In this document: positions 4,924-21,152 of the stretch, piece after piece | Layout: the number at the start of each line of letters is the position of its first letter | How positions within the stretch are numbered: the first letter of the stretch is position 1 | Virus record (IMG/VR): IMGVR_UViG_3300037840_000115 | Location: 1 to 21,326 of that record | Length of the DNA stretch: 21,326 nt | Origin: a virus | Direction: 5' to 3' (one strand) | Program-made: the position numbers and the translations under genes | The notes under the pieces: generated by a model | Database searches by the model: none | What the model saw: only the letters and a program-made list of their open reading frames with translations | Told to the model about the DNA's origin: nothing

Positions 4924-5364
4924 CTATATTGCGTGCGAATCCTCGGCTGTATACAGCGTGTTCAGCGTGACGCCTACGCTTGCAGGATTCGCGGGCCACG
5001 CGCCCGCCGCCTTCGGCCCGTAGATCGAAACAGGGTTGAGACCGTAATTGCCGAAACCCGCCCACAACAGAAAGTAGTCGCCGTTCACGCCAATGTCGGC
5101 TGTAGGCGCGGACGTGCCGAACCATTTCAATGCCGGCTGGTAGGTCAGTGGCACGGCAAAGAGAAAGTGGCCCCACGGGTCTACGTCACCGCCTGCGTCC
5201 GTTGACCGCTTGCTGTATATGTTCCAGGCCTGCACATCGATGTACAGGTCGCCAACAGTGCCCGCCTGAGGCACGGGCGGCCCATTGCCACGCGCAATCG
5301 AGCCGAACTGCTTGGCCTGGAAATAGATACCACCCTGCATTGTGCCGTTGTCGAAACCGCTCAT
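4924..5364 (-). CDS. Short paralogue of the duplicated gene pair
   Basis: This 146-residue protein is very similar to its upstream neighbour over about 120 residues; they share GGIYFQAKQFGSI, RGNGPPVPQAG, DVDPWGHFLF and WAFGNYGL-type segments (WAGFGNYGL). It lacks a central block of about 67 residues present in the longer copy, then rejoins it at the C-terminus, TLYTAEDSHAI against ALYTAEDGHAI. Its ATG overlaps the stop of the longer copy (ATGA, 5361-5364). No catalytic or membrane features are visible. The conserved PPVPQAG-x-VGDLY start resembles segments near the ends of phage fibre or structural proteins. Function is unknown; the pair may be alternative adhesin subunits. Confidence 0.68.
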   Translation of the reverse strand: MSGFDNGTMQGGIYFQAKQFGSIARGNGPPVPQAGTVGDLYIDVQAWNIYSKRSTDAGGDVDPWGHFLFAVPLTYQPALKWFGTSAPTADIGVNGDYFLLWAGFGNYGLNPVSIYGPKAAGAWPANPASVGVTLNTLYTAEDSHAI

Positions 5365-6002
5365 ATTGCGTGTCCGTCTTCTGCTGTGTACAACGCATTC
5401 AGTGTTACCGCAACATTTGCCGGGTTGCTCTGAATACCGATCTGCAAAATCGGCATTCCGGCCGCAATGCCCACAGGCGTCGGCTGCACGTATTCGTCCA
5501 CAATGCCGATCACGATCAGTTGCGTCGAACTGCTAAACGCAATTGGCGCACCTTCGCCTGCAAGTCCGATCGGAAGCACAAAGCCCGCACCCGTAATTGA
5601 TATGGACGTGTTTGGACCGTTGCCATTTTCCGCCCACACACCGAAAGCAGTTTTCGGCCCGTACATGGCAGGCTGGAGGCCGTAGTTGCCGAAACCCGCC
5701 CATGCCAGGCAATAGTCGCCTGTGACGCCCACACTGTCGTCAGGCGCCGACGTACTGAACCATTTAAGCTGATTTCGGTATGTGGCCGGAACGTTGAAAA
5801 GAAAATGGCCCCACGGGTCCACATCGCTCCCGGCCTCGGTAGAGCGCTTTGTGTACAGGTTCCACGCAGATACGTCTAAGTAAAGATCGCCGACGAGCCC
5901 GGCTTGCGGCACGGGCGGCCCGTTGCCGCGCAGGATCGAGCCAAATTGCTTGGCTTGGAAGTATATCCCGCCTTGCGATGTGCCGTTGTCGATGCCTGCC
6001 AT
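5361..6002 (-). CDS. Long paralogue of the duplicated gene pair
   Basis: This is a 213-residue protein. Residues 1-120 match the downstream paralogue closely. Residues about 121-190 are unique and beta-rich (SISITGAGFVLPIGLAGEG, TQLIVIGIVDEYVQPTPVG). The last 15 residues match again. The extra block is bounded by conserved sequence on both sides, so the short copy most simply arose by tandem duplication followed by internal deletion, or the long one by insertion. It starts 4 nt from the previous gene's stop, with a GAGG close to the ATG. Composition and context suggest a virion surface or tail component, but no known domain is recognised. Confidence 0.68.
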   Translation of the reverse strand: MAGIDNGTSQGGIYFQAKQFGSILRGNGPPVPQAGLVGDLYLDVSAWNLYTKRSTEAGSDVDPWGHFLFNVPATYRNQLKWFSTSAPDDSVGVTGDYCLAWAGFGNYGLQPAMYGPKTAFGVWAENGNGPNTSISITGAGFVLPIGLAGEGAPIAFSSSTQLIVIGIVDEYVQPTPVGIAAGMPILQIGIQSNPANVAVTLNALYTAEDGHAI

Positions 6003-12491: not shown

Positions 12492-15400
12492 GGCGTAGCC
12501 TCTCCCGATATTGCCTGTGTCATCGCTCTTACACCGATCTGCGCGCCGATCGCGCCCGGTAGCGGCGAATTCTGTGCCGCTTCGTTGGCGAAGAAATCGG
12601 CAAATTTTACCTTCCTGCCGAGCATCCGCGCGCGTAAATAGTCAGCGCCGTAGTCATAGAAGCGCTTCGCAGCGACAATTCCAGTCGTCGCGCCGGCTAA
12701 AGGATTGCCGGCCAAAACAGTAGACAAGTCGGCTGCTCCCAGTAATCCCAGTATTTTTCCTTCCTGACCGAGTGAGTGCCGCGCATCCGCTTTCACGGCA
12801 TTCAATGCCGCAATCGCAGTTGGATCGCCTGCCGCAATCTGTCGGAAATTGCGCTCGAATTCTCGGCTTTCCGGCGTATTCTTGGATAGCAAGGTGCTCA
12901 GTTTGCTTTGTTTGATGCCATCGCTGAGCTGCATAACAGTCGCATAGCGTTTGTCCGTTGCGTGTAGTTCGTCCATGAACGGATCGACGCGACTCTCTGG
13001 TAACAACGAAGATGCAATGCGCCTTTGTTCGCCGCGCAGACTGGTCGCCATCGTCCGCATGACTTCCGCTCTATCCGGGTCGTTTGCTTTATACGCATTG
13101 CGTTCCCAGCCTAACAGCAAAGACTGTGCTTTTTCGACATTGGCCCAGCGTGCCGCGGGATTAGCCGCGGGTTGGTCAGCATACCGCTGCGCGGTTGTTG
13201 CTTCCGGCTCGTATGCGGAAGTGATTGTTCCTTTAGGATTATCCGCTGTGTTGATTAACGACACAGGGCCATCTGGAATTGCCCTGCCACTGCCCGGTGA
13301 CGCGGTTATCTTATAGACGGGCTGTCCATCTGTTGAGTGCGTCACGCCACCAAATCCGGGGCGGGTGTTCGGATTGCGCTCAACAGTGTATCCGCGCCGT
13401 TCTAGCGCCCCGTACACGTTCGATGCCGCGTCCGTCACTGCGGTATCGCTAATCAGCGGCTTGCCTTGTGACAATCCGTAGTCGGCAAGCTTACTGTACG
13501 CTGTGACTGCCAAACCTTGTTTCTGCGACGCAGGATCAATATGTGGATAAGTAACCCTGATAGCGTCATCGCGCTCCGAAAAATCCAGATCACCAACTTG
13601 CTTGCCCGTCGCGTCGCGAATCGGCATGCTATTCGTGCCCTTGCCGTACGTAGGCGCGCCGGCTCTCTCAATCTGTGCCGCGCGGGCCGCCGCCGTTTCT
13701 AACTCTCTCCGTTTTGCTTGGTACTCCTGAACTGCAGCCGCCTTTTCGGCGGCAAGTGGCCGTCCGATTTGCGCCTCGGCAATTGTCGCACCTTCGCGCG
13801 CCCGGTCAACGGCGTAAGCGATGTCGTCCGGCTTATGGCCGCCGGCTTTGAGTTCCGCAGTAGCGTCGGCTGCGTCTTTTTCAGCCTGTACGTATTTCGG
13901 ATTGTCCAGCGCCGCGCCCTGAGCAGTGGCGGGCAGTTTGGGCTCTTGCTCTTTAAGCACCTTATTCGCATCCGTAAGCTTTGCCCCTTGGTCGAAGAGC
14001 TTCTGCTGTTCTGGTTTCGTGAACCGCGACACGAATTGGTGCGCCTCGCGACCGAGAAAGCCTACAAACCGACCGAGTACCCCAGTCGCCTCGCCGGCTG
14101 CAGAGCCCACTGCCGAGCTCCCCGCGCCAGTGATTGCAGCTCCGGCGATACTGTCCGCGTCGCCGCCCTCGACAGCCTTGGTGCCGCCTTCGACAACGCC
14201 GGCGCCGGCCGCACGAGCGAGCGCGCCAACGATGGGCCGCCCTTCGGGTGCAATGGCCTGAGTAAGGCCAAGGCCGCCTTGTTTCAGGTATTCAAGAGGC
14301 TGAGGAGTGTTTCGGTTGAGAAAATCTTTCGCCCCTTGGCCGACGACTCCGCCCGCAAGTCCGCCTGCTGCCATACCCGGCGGACCACCAACCGCACCTC
14401 CGATAGCACCCAAGGTTGAGCCAATCGCCGGACCTTCCTCGCGAACGTCCTGCCGCGCTGCTTCTGTCGTTGCACGTCCTCCAGGTACATTCCCGGACAT
14501 CAAACGTTGGAATAGCGACGGCGCTGTCGGCTTAGGCAACGCAGGAAGACCACCGCTGGGCGCCGTTCCTGTTCCGTAACTTTCAAGCGACGCAACGCCG
14601 TTTTTGCGAATGCCATCAAGTCGATTTTGAAGATTAGGCGTGGACGGCTTAAGATATTCGCGCGCGTATATCCTTGCCGCATCTTCGGGCGTTGCCGCGG
14701 TGTTCATGCGCTGCCATGTCGCCGGATAGTTGTTTTTCAAATTCTGTGCGGCGAACTGACTTTGCAACGCAGGATCGCGCCAATCCTTACCGGGCGCATT
14801 CTGTCCAAGCCACTGTGTGTAGTTGTTCCATTCTGCGCCGCCCTCTTGATAAAGCCCATGTGCGAAATGCGCCTCACCACCCCAACGCGGCTGGTCTGGA
14901 TGACGCAGACCGGGATCAAAATTCGATTCTTCGCGAATGTTGTGCATTATGCCGGCGATACCGTTATCCGACATGCCTTGGCCACGCCATGCGCCGATAA
15001 CCGATGGCGCAACCACATTGCCCCCGCCACCCGCAGGCCCAGAGGCGCTTCCGGCGGCAAGGTGATCGCGTCCGTAAGGCGTATCGCCGGATTCCTGTAT
15101 AGGTGCGGCAGTGGTCGCGCCCGGAATTCTACTACCCGTGGGGAGATTGACACGCCGGTCGCCGATCGCAACCATCGGATAACCAGCAATTTCACGTTTG
15201 CTGCCAGCAACGGCGCTGTTATATGTTGCCAGCAATTGCGGATCGCCGGTCAATTCTTTTGAAAGCCCCAAATCTTCCAAATTCATGCCGTAGCGGCCGG
15301 CGGTCTTAAACGGCTGATTAAGACGCTCGCTCGCCTCTTGCATCATTTGTTGATGCTGAAATCGAGCGATCATCTTGATGCCTTCAATCGAAGGCGGCGC

Positions 15401-17692: not shown

Positions 17693-17889
17693 CGTCTGCG
17701 TTCCGGTATGTATTCGTAAACCATTACACGAAGGCCGGCTTTCCGAATAGCCCCCAAATGCACGTCAAGAAAACGCGGATCGAAGATTTCGATCCGACGT
17801 TTCCGTATCCAATCCAAGCCATAGTCGGTATTGCCATGCGCGCTTGCCCACAGCCGCCGTGACTTGATGACGATATCGATATCAGTCAT
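17689..17889 (-). CDS. 66-residue hypothetical protein
   Basis: MTDIDIVIKSRRLWASAHGN, then DYGLDWIRKRRIEIFDPRFL and RVMVYEYIPERRR: a small alpha/beta protein with a buried WIRKRRIEIF helix and a basic C-terminus. Its ATG lies within the 3' end of the DUF6378-like gene (8-nt overlap) and its stop overlaps the RMF-like gene's ATG. Family not recognised. Confidence 0.58.
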   Translation of the reverse strand: MTDIDIVIKSRRLWASAHGNTDYGLDWIRKRRIEIFDPRFLDVHLGAIRKAGLRVMVYEYIPERRR

Positions 17890-18196
17890 TGCTAACCAGA
17901 ATGCTTTTTGACGCCTGCGCTGTCAGCCGCTCGCGCTCTTGACGCAAGTGGCGCTCGACAAGCGTCGCATAGCCCGCGATATCGTGCCAATGATCCATGT
18001 GATTGCGATCGCCTTCGAGAATGCGCGCGATCTTGTGTTGAATCATTTCCAAGGCTTCGCGCTGATGTGGTGTCAAGCTCTTGTAGTTCGTCGCGCGGCG
18101 CATAACATCAGATAGCGCTTGTGAGATTTCCGCCTGATCAACGAAAGCGCCGTGCACGGCATGACGCTCCGTTAGCGTTTCGCTAATATCGCTCAT
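17882..18196 (-). CDS. DUF6378-like phage protein
   Basis: The start is the ATG at 18196, preceded by GGAGG at 6 nt; an ATG eight codons earlier has no advantage and lies deeper in the neighbour. The 104-residue product, LTERHAVHGAFVDQAEISQA, then LTPHQREALEMIQHKIARIL and EGDRNHMDHWHDIAGYATLV, matches the pattern I remember for DUF6378: 'ER...YG.f...a.i.q.l..v.......L...Q.EAL.MI..KiARIl.Gd....D.W.DIaGYa.L'. The helical E/H/D-rich centre recalls all-alpha NTP pyrophosphatases of the MazG type, but catalytic identity is unproven. A nucleotide-metabolism or early-gene role is an inference. Confidence 0.75.
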   Translation of the reverse strand: MSDISETLTERHAVHGAFVDQAEISQALSDVMRRATNYKSLTPHQREALEMIQHKIARILEGDRNHMDHWHDIAGYATLVERHLRQERERLTAQASKSILVSND

Positions 18197-18581
18197 TCGT
18201 CGCCTCCGTAAACGCATCAAGCACTTTAATTAACGAAAGACTGCCGTCGCTGTCAAACACGTCGTTACGACCAGCAACACGCAATTTAGCAACTATCTCT
18301 GCATACGCTGGCTTGTGCACCTGGAGTGTTACATAGTCCGAGTACGCCGTGACTGTAACTTCTTCCGTGGCGTCTTTGGGTATGTTTGTTGAGCCGTCGT
18401 AATCACGCCATTCGATCCTGAAAGCGTCTAGTAACTCCATAGCCGCATAATCGTAGTTGTGCGCATCCTGAATTTTACGAACGAGTTTCTGGAACTCTAC
18501 GGGCATACGACCGTACAGCCCAACTATATCACCTTTTTTCATAGGTGGGTGTCCATCCCGTTCCTCGTTTACTTTGCTCAT
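18183..18581 (-). CDS. 132-residue hypothetical protein
   Basis: MSKVNEERDGHPPMKKGDIV, then helical EFQKLVRKIQDAHNYDYAAM and ELLDAFRIEWRDYDGST, followed by beta-type EEVTVTAYSDYVTLQVHKP and a helical end LIKVLDAFTEATNERY. No signal peptide or metal site is visible. The ATG at 18581 has GGGGGAG at 4 nt and overlaps the previous stop. Its last 14 nt overlap the start of the DUF6378-like gene. A later start at MKKGD is possible. Function is unknown. Confidence 0.6.
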   Translation of the reverse strand: MSKVNEERDGHPPMKKGDIVGLYGRMPVEFQKLVRKIQDAHNYDYAAMELLDAFRIEWRDYDGSTNIPKDATEEVTVTAYSDYVTLQVHKPAYAEIVAKLRVAGRNDVFDSDGSLSLIKVLDAFTEATNERY

Positions 18582-18788: not shown

Positions 18789-19190
18789 TCAGTAAGCTGC
18801 CTTGAACGCCGGCTCTGGCTTTGTGCTGGCAACAGCAACGAGCGCTTGGCCTTCCTCGCCGAGCTTTTCCAGCGCCGCAGGCGATTGCAGCTTGAACGCC
18901 TTAAGCCCGTACGTGGCAAATGCAAGGTCAGCCGCTACAGTTTCGTCATGCCAGAAGCGATGCTTGGCGATTGGCTTGCGCATGGCGCCAGCGATTGACA
19001 TGCCGTCGCCGATGACTCGAGCTTGAATGCGGCTATCGATCACTTCGATGAAGCTAGCCGCAGCCTGCATAGTCTTGGCAAGCGGCACAAGCTCATTGTC
19101 ATTGATTGCAGCAACGTCGAGTGCTTTCAGCTCAGACACAATTGCGTCGAGGGCGGATTTCAGTTCGGCGGGTGTTCGGTGGTTTTGCAT
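18789..19190 (-). CDS. 133-residue phage protein, weak DUF2800-like C-terminus
   Basis: The N-terminus (TPAELKSALDAIVSELKALD, then DSRIQARVIGDGMSIAGAM) is helical. The C-terminal half, KHRFWHDETVAADLAFATYG, LQSPAALEKLGEEGQALVAV and STKPEPAFKAAY, recalls the end of DUF2800 phage proteins ('W.dE..a...l......L.SPA..EKl........v..KP'), which are nuclease-like proteins linked to recombination genes. Only this tail resembles them, so no nuclease activity is claimed. It is the first gene after repeated promoter copy A and the shared AAACGTTGGAGAACG leader. Confidence 0.55.
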   Translation of the reverse strand: MQNHRTPAELKSALDAIVSELKALDVAAINDNELVPLAKTMQAAASFIEVIDSRIQARVIGDGMSIAGAMRKPIAKHRFWHDETVAADLAFATYGLKAFKLQSPAALEKLGEEGQALVAVASTKPEPAFKAAY

Positions 19191-19194
19191 GTTA

Positions 19195-19249
19195 CGTTCT
19201 CCAACGTTTCGAATGGTGACGTTCTAGGGTGATTCGCGGCTCGAGTCAA
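19195..19249 (-). promoter_or_regulatory. Repeated promoter/leader module, copy A
   Basis: On the minus strand TTGACT (19244-19249), 17 bp, TAGAAC (19221-19226), then leader AAACGTTGGAGAACG (19195-19209) with the GGAG ribosome site 9 nt before ATG. 48 of 50 positions (19200-19249) equal copy B exactly 200 bp away. The -10 box contains the TAG stop of the 55-residue gene and the -35 lies inside its coding sequence. Confidence 0.68.
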
Positions 19250-19391
19250 TCCGACATTTGCCCGAATCAAGGCACGCAAGCTTCGACTGACAGCTTTCAC
19301 ACGTCACGAAAGATTTTCCGTATGTGACTATTTCGCCACCCAATTCCTTCATGAGTGCATCGCCTGTGCTTTCGTACGGGTTCTTTGCCAT
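19224..19391 (-). CDS. 55-residue Cys-rich protein
   Basis: From the ATG at 19391 the frame encodes MAKNPYESTGDALMKELGGE, then IVTYGKSFVTCESCQSKLAC and LDSGKCRIDSSRESP. Cys at 31, 34, 40 and 46 (C-x2-C-x5-C-x5-C) suggest a zinc-binding knuckle. The gene is preceded by promoter/leader copy B, with the leader's GGAG 9 nt before its ATG. Its final codons and TAG stop double as the core of promoter copy A for the next gene. Function is unknown. Confidence 0.62.
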   Translation of the reverse strand: MAKNPYESTGDALMKELGGEIVTYGKSFVTCESCQSKLACLDSGKCRIDSSRESP

Positions 19392-19394
19392 GTC

Positions 19395-19449
19395 CGATCT
19401 CCATCGTTTCGAATGGTGGCGTTCTAGGGTGATTCGCGGCTCGAGTCAA
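19395..19449 (-). promoter_or_regulatory. Repeated promoter/leader module, copy B
   Basis: TTGACT (19444-19449), 17 bp, TAGAAC (19421-19426), leader AAACGATGGAGATCG (19395-19409) on the minus strand. The -35 overlaps the TGA stop (19446-19448) of the 50-residue membrane protein gene. It is nearly identical to copy A and serves the 55-residue Cys-rich gene. Confidence 0.68.
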
Positions 19450-19598
19450 GGGCCGTTAATGATCACCATAGCCACAAATGCCACAGCCGTAAGCCCAACC
19501 GTAATCAGCACTAACGCTGCTACGACTCGAGCCGCATTTGCGCCGAAGGCGAATCCGACAAGCGCAATCAAACCAGCCGCAGTCAGAAAATGGTGCAT
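19446..19598 (-). CDS. 50-residue two-pass membrane protein
   Basis: The ATG at 19598 follows the shared leader (GGAG 9 nt upstream). The product is almost wholly hydrophobic: LTAAGLIALVGFAFGANAA and VVAALVLITVGLTAVAFVAM, separated by Arg, ending VIINGP. This fits two short membrane helices in a hairpin. Such tiny proteins can be holins, antiholins or host membrane modulators; nothing decides. Its stop overlaps the -35 of promoter copy B. Confidence 0.6.
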   Translation of the reverse strand: MHHFLTAAGLIALVGFAFGANAARVVAALVLITVGLTAVAFVAMVIINGP

Positions 19599-19601
19599 GT
19601 T

Positions 19602-19661
19602 CGTTCTCCAACGTTTGAATTACGATGCCGCATGTGTACGCCGCTCATTCCGACTTGTCAA
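19602..19661 (-). promoter_or_regulatory. Promoter/leader module, copy C
   Basis: A perfect TTGACA (19656-19661), 17 bp, TACACA (19633-19638), then leader AAACGTTGGAGAACG (19602-19616), all on the minus strand. The -35 lies inside the last codons of the 160-residue gene (Leu-Asp-Lys). The leader core is the same as copies A and D, but the -10 region differs from A and B. Confidence 0.6.
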
Positions 19662-20127
19662 GCGCCCGCATTTGCCGCTGTGAATATCTTTTCGAAGCGT
19701 CGGTGTCCATTCCGAGCAGCCAAGCTAGCCGGCCTATTTCATGCCGCTCGTACTTGTTCGCGCAAACAGCGTCCCAATGCGCCACAGCCGCACGGCCGTT
19801 GATTGGCGAGGCCGCAATTGCAATCTTCAGCGCGTACGAAGCCGGTTCATTGCAAGCCGCGACAATCCGCTCTTTGCGCTTCGTGCGTTCAAAGTCGGTA
19901 CGTGCTAGCCGGCTAATTGCGATCAAATCGTCAATTACGCTTGCAAGCAGTCCGCCGCACAATTCCGCTTGTTCGTGCGTCAAGCCGGCATTCGTGCAAG
20001 CCGCTGTTAAAGCCGGGCTTGTGAACCGTACCAGCTTGCTTCGAATAGCCGAGCCGTGCCTGCTAACTTGTTCTAGCGCGTAGCCGGATAGCCGGGTCGT
20101 CAACTGCGTGCTCATGCGATCCGACAT
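19645..20127 (-). CDS. 160-residue hypothetical helical protein
   Basis: I chose the ATG at 20127, preceded by AAGGAAGAAG at about 7 nt, over an upstream ATG that adds 17 unlikely residues. The protein is helical: STQLTTRLSGYALEQVSRHG, LTHEQAELCGGLLASVIDDL and RTKRKERIVAACNEPASYAL, then AVAHWDAVCANKYERHEIGR. Four Cys are spread without a metal motif. It is the first gene leftward of the candidate origin, so it may be an early or replication-linked protein, an inference from position only. Family not recognised. Confidence 0.58.
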   Translation of the reverse strand: MSDRMSTQLTTRLSGYALEQVSRHGSAIRSKLVRFTSPALTAACTNAGLTHEQAELCGGLLASVIDDLIAISRLARTDFERTKRKERIVAACNEPASYALKIAIAASPINGRAAVAHWDAVCANKYERHEIGRLAWLLGMDTDASKRYSQRQMRALDKSE

Positions 20128-20179
20128 AGCCGATCTTCTTCCTTCCGGCAATGGGGGCCGACCGTAAGGGAGCGCCACC

Positions 20180-20305
20180 CTCTTTCTTTAATTTGCCCTT
20201 CTTTAATTTATTAATACACCGTTTGTCCCCTTTAGGGGACGGTGATCTTTAGTGGCATGTGTATAAAAAAAGAGATCAAACCACACAAAGAATCTTGTGG
20301 ATAAC
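20180..20305. other. AT-rich divergent region with two DnaA boxes: candidate replication origin
   Basis: This is the core of the 263-nt gap between divergent genes (20127 leftward, 20391 rightward). It holds two sequences fitting the DnaA consensus TGTGNATAA in the same orientation: TGTGTATAA (20258-20266) and TGTGGATAA (20296-20304), 38 bp apart. A direct repeat TTCTTTAATTT (20184-20194 and 20199-20209) lies in an AT-rich stretch. A perfect hairpin GTCCCCTTTAGGGGAC (20225-20240) separates the two. DnaA boxes, AT-rich direct repeats and a hairpin are typical origin parts. It may equally be a control region; no origin activity is shown. Confidence 0.45.
20225..20240. repeat. Perfect 6-bp stem hairpin
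   Basis: GTCCCC and GGGGAC flank a 4-nt TTTA loop. No T tract follows on either strand, so an intrinsic terminator is unlikely. It may be a DNA hairpin, operator or part of the candidate origin. Confidence 0.5.
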
Positions 20306-20390
20306 TTTTGATGAATGCAAAAGATGTAGCGAATGTGGAGAACGAAAATGATAGAAAGCACGCACCACACGTGAAAAAGAAGGAAAAAGC

Positions 20391-20876
20391 ATGCTACAGG
20401 GCACTACGCTGCACGGCTGGAAAATCGGCGAACCGGTCACAAAATGGTGGCGCGGCAAGTACATTCATCTTTACCGGGTCACTAAGGCATGCGCGCAATG
20501 CCAACAAGAAATGACGTTAGATGTGACTAAAGCCGCGCTAATGGGGACGGCCAAGAATTCCGGCTTCCACTTGACGCGTTGCCTGGAATGCCGGGCCACA
20601 ACGCGTTCGCAGCCTAGCACGTCACGGCCTGTTGTGCTCGACGCTACACCGCAATCAACGGCACCGCAGTCACCCGGCGACGCCTCCGAGGTCGAACATT
20701 TGCGCGCAGTCAACAGCACCATGCTGCAGGAGATAAACTGCTCTAACGAGTACGTGCGCGAATTGGAAGCCAAGATCAAAGCGCTGGAAGCCAAGAAACC
20801 CGAACCGCCATTTGATCCTCACAAAATGCTGGCAAACGAGCTAGCCAAGCTGAAAGGACCGTGGAGTTTTGAGTGA
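20391..20876 (+). CDS. 161-residue zinc-ribbon and coiled-coil protein
   Basis: Residues 1-33 are Trp/Lys-rich (LHGWKIGEPVTKWWRGKYIH). Two CxxC knuckles, C34-x2-C37 (ACAQC) and C64-x2-C67 (RCLEC), are spaced as in a four-Cys zinc ribbon. A Thr/Ser/Pro-rich linker (70-97) leads to a charged coiled coil (EVEHLRAVNSTMLQEI, then RELEAKIKALEAKKPE) and a basic end. Such zinc ribbons often bind DNA or RNA. GAAGGA lies 8 nt before the ATG. It is the first gene rightward of the candidate origin, so an early regulatory or replication role is possible. No family is recognised. Confidence 0.65.
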   Translation: MLQGTTLHGWKIGEPVTKWWRGKYIHLYRVTKACAQCQQEMTLDVTKAALMGTAKNSGFHLTRCLECRATTRSQPSTSRPVVLDATPQSTAPQSPGDASEVEHLRAVNSTMLQEINCSNEYVRELEAKIKALEAKKPEPPFDPHKMLANELAKLKGPWSFE

Positions 20877-20896
20877 CGCATGCGTATCCTTAAGGA
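20876..20896. repeat. Two adjacent 10-bp palindromes
   Basis: ACGCATGCGT (20876-20885) and TCCTTAAGGA (20887-20896) are both perfect palindromes and lie side by side right after the zinc-ribbon gene's stop. They could be a dimer-binding site or part of a weak terminator. Single 10-bp palindromes are common by chance; the adjacency is the only point. Confidence 0.4.
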
Positions 20897-20916
20897 CAGC
20901 TATGCAAAAATAGGGC

Positions 20917-20969
20917 TTGCAATCCCTTAGGACTGTGCTAAATTGTAGACACTGAAACGTTGGAGAACG
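20917..20969 (+). promoter_or_regulatory. Promoter/leader module, copy D (plus strand)
   Basis: TTGCAA (20917-20922), 16 bp, TAAATT (20939-20944) and the leader AAACGTTGGAGAACG (20955-20969), which is the same 15-mer as copies A and C but on the opposite strand. The TGTGCTA just before the -10 also occurs in the promoters at 16752 and 17291. GGAG lies 9 nt before the ATG at 20973. Confidence 0.55.
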
Positions 20970-20972
20970 GAC

Positions 20973-21152
20973 ATGACATATCACGAAGCACGCGCCCTCT
21001 TACCGCCCAACCGCGCATGGTCGGCATGCTACGGCGATCCCGAGCAACCGGGATTTGAAGAATGGCATGGAGCCGGCGGCCGTACATATGTTCTGCGCCA
21101 GATGGCGTGGGGAGAATGGACGGCGTACGGCATTTGTGTTTATACGTGTTAA
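20973..21152 (+). CDS. 59-residue hypothetical protein
   Basis: The ATG follows the shared leader. The product, MTYHEARALLPPNRAWSACY, then GDPEQPGFEEWHGAGGRTYV and LRQMAWGEWTAYGICVYTC, is rich in aromatic residues (Trp x4, Tyr x5) with three Cys and a compact beta look. Nothing identifies its role. It shares only the leader, not the protein sequence, with the genes behind copies A to C. Confidence 0.6.
   Translation: MTYHEARALLPPNRAWSACYGDPEQPGFEEWHGAGGRTYVLRQMAWGEWTAYGICVYTC

Follow-up and report, generated by a model that had tools for sequence, protein, structure and literature searches.

A portable leader predicted to hold the Shine-Dalgarno sequence in a hairpin loop precedes unrelated small genes in an uncultured phage group

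A fragment of an IMG/VR virus record (IMGVR_UViG_3300037840_000115), 21,326 bp long and referred to below as the window, was studied here. Four small genes in it, on both strands, are preceded by copies of one short leader. To judge from the sequence, what these four copies have in common is a leader hairpin of the form CGNU-GGAG-ANCG, in which the Shine-Dalgarno (SD) sequence GGAG makes up the loop. The observation of a repeat in front of these starts is confirmed, and comparison with relatives shows a leader family with a fixed place, compensatory pairing, promoters and gene exchange behind the leaders. From these patterns we infer that the hairpin forms in the mRNA, affects translation initiation and is bound by a common factor. 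We lean, with some reserve, toward the idea that many small early genes come under one translational control through this portable, structured ribosome-binding site (RBS), which a common factor would read.

A preliminary description of the window had placed the 15-mer AAACGTTGGAGAACG 3–4 nt ahead of the ATG of four genes, and all four copies were verified at these open reading frames (ORFs). The matches lie at 19195–19209, 19395–19409 (with two changes) and 19602–19616 on the minus strand and at 20955–20969 on the plus strand, and are called leaders A to D in that order. The number expected by chance at three or fewer mismatches is 0.65, and four copies were reached in 1 of 100 shuffles. Leader A consists of AAA and the hairpin CGUU-GGAG-AACG (19206–19195) and ends 4 nt before the ATG of a 133-aa gene (18789–19190, minus), orthologs of which stand behind leaders in 14 other records. 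Leaders C (hairpin at 19613–19602) and D (hairpin at 20958–20969) have the same make-up and precede genes for a 50-aa hydrophobic protein (19446–19598, minus) and a 59-aa protein (20973–21152, plus). Leader B, in front of a 55-aa gene (19224–19391, minus), has AAA and the hairpin CGAU-GGAG-AUCG (19406–19395); its two stem changes relative to A, C and D compensate each other. The four proteins are unrelated, as had been claimed (best mutual blastp E value 3.4), and searches of the leader genes against Pfam and PHROGs gave mostly no match. The family of the 133-aa protein resembles the C-terminal part of the DUF2800/phage exonuclease family, and this product may be a regulatory part that became detached from a DUF2800 nuclease. 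A full DUF2800 nuclease (331 aa) is also encoded by G002, a near relative of the window.

The idea of one promoter/leader cassette in front of all four genes stands for the leader (12–15 nt), which all four share, and falls for the promoter, which is common to A and B only. Promoter A (19221–19249, minus; read from the sequence) has a –35 element TTGACT (19249–19244), a 17-bp spacer and a –10 element TAGAAC (19226–19221). Promoter B (19421–19449, minus) is the same, with TTGACT at 19449–19444 and TAGAAC at 19426–19421. Copies A and B agree at 48 of 50 bases from TTGACT on, as read from the sequence, and sit in a 66-nt repeat of promoter and leader (19184–19249 and 19384–19449) that is 88% identical, the copies being exactly 200 bp apart. 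For C and D, which have their own –35 and –10 elements, the leader alone is common ground with A and B. Promoter C (19633–19661, minus; read from the sequence) has TTGACA (19661–19656), a 17-bp spacer and TACACA (19638–19633), and promoter D (20917–20944, plus) has TTGCAA (20917–20922), a 16-bp spacer and TAAATT (20939–20944). Upstream of promoter D is a perfect, operator-like palindrome, TCCTTAAGGA (20887–20896).

Pairing was scored on 146 distinct TGGAGA sites at starts in leader-bearing records, selected irrespective of the outer three pairs; this choice of site fixes only the inner U-A pair, which therefore never varies. Pair 2 is paired in 131 of the 146 sites (shuffled mean 109, maximum 117), with 113 C-G, 11 U-A and 4 A-U pairs. 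Pair 3 is paired in 135 of 146 (shuffled mean 123, maximum 132), with 110 G-C, 18 G-U and 4 A-U pairs. The three inner pairs are retained by 83 of 104 TGGAGA sites at starts versus 25 of 194 elsewhere. In an alignment of 73 leaders, which had been pre-selected for pairing, the covariation score was 0.217 compared with 0.123 in shuffled alignments (none of 500 reached the observed value) and 0.137 in the best slid register. Paired changes are also found between orthologous genes. Leaders of the 50-aa gene have CGUU/AACG in the window versus CGCU/AGUG (CGCU-GGAG-AGUG) in G002, and those of a 55-aa gene have CGCU/AGCG in record L263 versus UGAU/AUCG in L270. Orthologs of a 93-aa gene have CGCU/AGUG in G042 versus CACU/AGUG in L263, and the 133-aa gene occurs behind CGUU/AACG, CGCU/AGCG and other leaders.

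Several results weigh against a hairpin read by a common factor. Predicted hairpin energies are weak, at –3 to –5 kcal/mol, and are no more stable than those of shuffled sequence, so that folding energy alone shows no hairpin and the case rests on covariation. Leader C folds otherwise in the best structure of the folding tool, and the fourth (outer) pair is C-A in about one-quarter of the copies. Stem variants are a minority, and U-A at pair 2 is limited to the closest relatives of the window. The independent compensatory events are few, because a variant can be carried whole from copy to copy by recombination; A-U arose at least twice. As to known factors, CsrA was absent from all 11 records searched, where positive controls were detected, and RegB had no match in any of 11 records in a search that lacked a working positive control. 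The leaders match no Rfam family. A search for DUF3310 found nothing.

The preliminary description had called for a search of relatives and of the gene content behind each copy. Among IMG/VR relatives there are 126 distinct leaders in 27 records, and these recur before 84 unrelated protein clusters, 67 of which are singletons. The expected preference for starts was borne out; leader-bearing records totaling 595 kb contain 78 occurrences of the leader consensus at starts against 7 at other positions, with 3 in the reversed control. Spacing between the SD and the ATG is 6–9 nt throughout the family, usually 7–8 nt. The genes behind the leaders are small, and none is a capsid or tail gene in the sets examined. 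From their size, place and neighborhood, they appear to be early genes.

Near relatives of the window carry several copies each, with 7 leaders in G002 (terminase 99% identical) and 7–8 in G001 (97%), including the version CGCU-GGAG-AGUG. In G021, G023, G037, G038 and G039 (terminase 70–79%), the leaders are CGCU-GGAG-AGCG/A, AGCU-GGAG-AGCU and UGCU-GGAG-AGCA. Such leaders are missing from most terminase relatives at 61–65% identity (G029, G030, G031, G035, G036), where the early modules differ. An exact 15-mer scan of IMG/VR gave 47 matches, mostly single and at chance level, and only multi-copy contigs are informative. A degenerate pattern turned up further multi-copy records (G042–G045, G047, G055). 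This pattern, GCTGGAGAGC-N3-5-ATG, had 67 forward and 0 reversed-control matches in 20 viral records, all of which had been entered with one or more matches. In 14 new records chosen solely by a relative of the helical protein described below, all 14 were leader-positive, with 48 forward and 0 control matches. As a comparison, a pattern for the same family gave 102 single matches in scattered taxa among 84,980 cellular genomes, with about 120 estimated by chance.

The majority of leaders stand behind a TTGACA promoter, in many cases one with palindromes. TTGAC was found upstream of 53 of 78 leaders versus 5.0 expected, most commonly 42–43 nt before the hairpin. Of 126 upstream regions, 44 contain perfect palindromes of at least 10 bp, compared with about 8 expected. 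The palindromes recur by genome, with TCCCTAGGGA or CGTTTAAACG in the –35/–10 spacer and TGTACGTACA over the –10 element, which suggests that they may be repressor operators that differ between phages in the manner of immunity groups. These genome-specific palindromes were noted in the leader promoters of L244–L247, L263, L264, L270 and L274. Some leaders lie inside operons and have no promoter (G002 at 772, 1068, 1339 and 1569; G001 at 15046). Their presence without a promoter shows that the leader itself is what is maintained.

It had also been proposed that the cassette, rather than the genes, was copied. This is supported, near-identical promoter-leaders preceding unrelated genes within and between genomes, but not in the wording given, since the promoter is common to A and B only and several leaders of the relatives are promoter-less. 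Before unrelated proteins, the 60-base upstream regions are identical at 60/60 positions between leader B of the window and G002, at 56/60 between G043 and G047, at 52/60 between G039 and G055, and at 51/60 between leader D and G002. Promoter D also precedes unrelated genes in G001 and G002. Compared with the window, G002 is missing exactly one 200-bp cassette unit and the 55-aa gene; its leader B precedes what is, in the window, the gene of leader A. G002 thus looks like a precise A/B recombinant. This resemblance, together with the conserved promoter-leaders in front of different genes, argues that genes have been exchanged behind the promoter-leaders.

A mechanism that would account for these observations is as follows. 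Each copy would form a short hairpin of three conserved base pairs, often four or five, that presents the SD GGAG in a tetraloop before the AUG. This hairpin would usually end a 5' leader of about 25–30 nt transcribed from a sigma70-type promoter, often one with palindromic operator-like sites, and would sometimes lie inside an operon. Recombination between copies would swap the genes behind the promoter-leader. Most likely, the hairpin would serve as the landing site of a common factor, coded by phage or host, that jointly opens or blocks the RBSs.

The main rival is a plain strong RBS with no trans-acting factor, a serious possibility that we nevertheless think rather unlikely. The loop would offer GGAG to the 30S subunit, the hairpin at the 5' end would protect the mRNA, and duplication and recombination would keep the copies alike. 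The fixed SD-AUG spacing, the accessibility of GGAG in the loop, the empty searches for known RNA regulators and the visible recombination between copies all agree with this. However, the SD is just 4 nt long and is not extended to AGGAGG, as would be expected under selection for strength alone. The flanks, which have no complement in rRNA, are conserved across phages whose proteins are only 55–70% identical. Moreover, the restriction of the leaders to small, apparently early genes, with capsid and tail genes lacking them in the sets examined, does not fit a device for strength alone.

Other explanations are less probable than a strong RBS. One is that a phage repressor binds the dyad GCTnnnnAGC in DNA as an operator or stoperator, the overlap of the dyad with the SD being incidental. 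The element is indeed a dyad, and true operator-like palindromes occur in the same promoters, but the leader is always oriented with its gene at 6–9 nt from the ATG, its central GGAG is invariant in the family, and it is also present without a promoter. The 18 G-U pairs at pair 3 are pairs in RNA and mismatches in a DNA dyad, so that RNA fits better. We consider an operator improbable, and the likeness to stoperators drawn in the preliminary description was dropped for a leader that always faces its gene and contains the SD. Slightly more doubtful still is a cleavage site, where a RegB-like nuclease encoded by the phage, or else an RNase of the host, would cut GGAG and switch early mRNAs off. 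Against this are the negative RegB search, with the limit noted above, and the properties of RegB, which is hindered by RNA secondary structure and prefers an A-rich 3' side (PMC3014915), whereas a stem is conserved here. Least likely is that the leader is a recombination handle only, homology at starts allowing swaps of accessory genes without a regulatory role; the gene exchange behind conserved promoter-leaders and the exact 200-bp difference between the window and G002 speak for it, but 15 nt offers little length for homologous exchange, and homology alone would not require the paired changes seen in the stem.

If a common factor does read the hairpin, the most attractive candidate regulator is a conserved, all-helical protein of about 156 aa. 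Its gene (19645–20115, in an ORF open to 20178) lies between leaders C and D, in the middle of the leader array, and has no leader of its own. The protein (about 145–156 aa, with a basic stretch FERTKRKER) is conserved in all leader-bearing records that cover the region and occurs in no leader-less relative identified by its terminase large subunit. In records picked by the helical protein, leaders flank its gene on both sides. An AlphaFold model was confident (predicted local distance difference test score, pLDDT, 88.7) and all-helical, and a Foldseek search with this model found no fold match in PDB or BFVD. Its association with the leaders is confounded with the early module, because a primase-helicase and others share the same phyletic pattern. 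The protein could equally bind the promoter palindromes. A translational regulon in which this protein, bound to the GGAG-loop hairpin, would set the translation of all leader genes at once, with the similar repeats of actinobacteriophages being convergent, is a tentative proposal that we hold to be doubtful.

Those repeats are the start-associated sequences (SAS) of Cluster K mycobacteriophages, in which a 13-bp repeat containing the SD lies directly before the starts of 11–19 genes of different families, mostly in one orientation (PMC3203893, PMC11373665). About half are extended (ESAS): a SigA-type promoter lies upstream of them, and an inverted repeat overlaps this promoter (PMC3203893, PMC11373665). 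They were described in 2011 (PMC3203893), and as late as 2024 their function was given as unknown (PMC11373665). Pope et al. noted that conserved bases without an rRNA partner flank the SD (PMC3203893). Cluster EF Microbacterium phages are reported to have SAS/ESAS as well, with GGGAAAGGACCCC present ten times at RBS positions and motifs linked to it upstream (PMC7302621). The passages of that paper that were consulted put forward no hairpin or covariation; these SAS differ from the leaders in sequence and host.

The leaders share every part of this arrangement, namely a repeat with the SD immediately before many starts, gene orientation, unrelated families behind it and a subset with a promoter and inverted repeat. 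They differ from Cluster K SAS in consensus (AAMCGCTGGAGAGCR here versus GGGATAGGAGCCC), and the phages are unrelated; no meaningful shared proteins were found with the right arms of Pixie and Angelica, where one weak tblastn match linked ORFs of the window's group to Pixie. On these grounds, the leaders are best classed as being of the SAS/ESAS kind and not as a homolog of the Cluster K element. The consensus ends GGG...CCC in Clusters K and EF could likewise pair around the SD. The scanned SAS copies of Pixie and Angelica hardly vary, and among the variants one change is paired whereas several break the pairing on one side, so a hairpin in Cluster K, for which support looks weak and mixed where that for the leaders looks good, is not claimed as proven. 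One SAS copy, at L249 position 519 (Pixie 30519), reads CGGATAGGAGCCG, with CGG..CCG, both consensus ends being changed as a pair.

Similarities to other elements are more limited. Stoperators of Cluster A mycobacteriophages (L5) are likewise short repeats that recur many times along a phage genome in a single orientation, but they are asymmetric DNA sites, bound by a repressor, that act on transcription and are not tied to starts, whereas the repeat here is an RBS at a fixed distance from the ATG. T4 RegB sites likewise have GGAG within the RBS of early genes, but they are unstructured with an A-rich 3' side, whereas the leaders conserve a stem. Where CsrA/RsmA binds, a small hairpin over the SD has GGA in its loop, and the CsrA consensus has A or R before GGA. 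The leaders are similar in the position of GGA but have U before it.

Start-associated repeats have so far been described only in Mycobacterium and Microbacterium phages and are unexplained there. The leaders are a sequence-unrelated system in a different phage group, and their natural stem variants point to a hairpin with the SD in the loop. If this is correct, phages would have a further switch that acts genome-wide on accessory genes at the RNA level, and new genes would have a simple way to gain ready-made expression signals. The sequence signature also allows related phages and accessory genes to be found in metagenomes.

The window encodes a terminase large subunit (413–1975; PHROG terminase, E value 3e-20) and a 1410-aa protein carrying a tail lysozyme domain. 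Because the terminase is less than 31% identical to its nearest cultured relatives, the window represents an uncultured phage group. A blastn search of the leader region against cultured phages gave no match, and the more distant relatives of the group (terminase 70–79%) are uncultured phages of about 52 kb. In the tail region there is a tandem duplication on the minus strand, where two neighboring genes (146 aa and 213 aa; 5031–5426 and 5669–5992) share about 73% DNA identity along a stretch exceeding 300 bp. A 112-aa protein (17882–18220) contains DUF6378, which is widespread among phage families (PHROG 16943, 17775). The rightward arm opens with a 161-aa protein with CxxC pairs (20391–20876) that is distantly conserved in relatives and is a possible zinc-binding early regulator.
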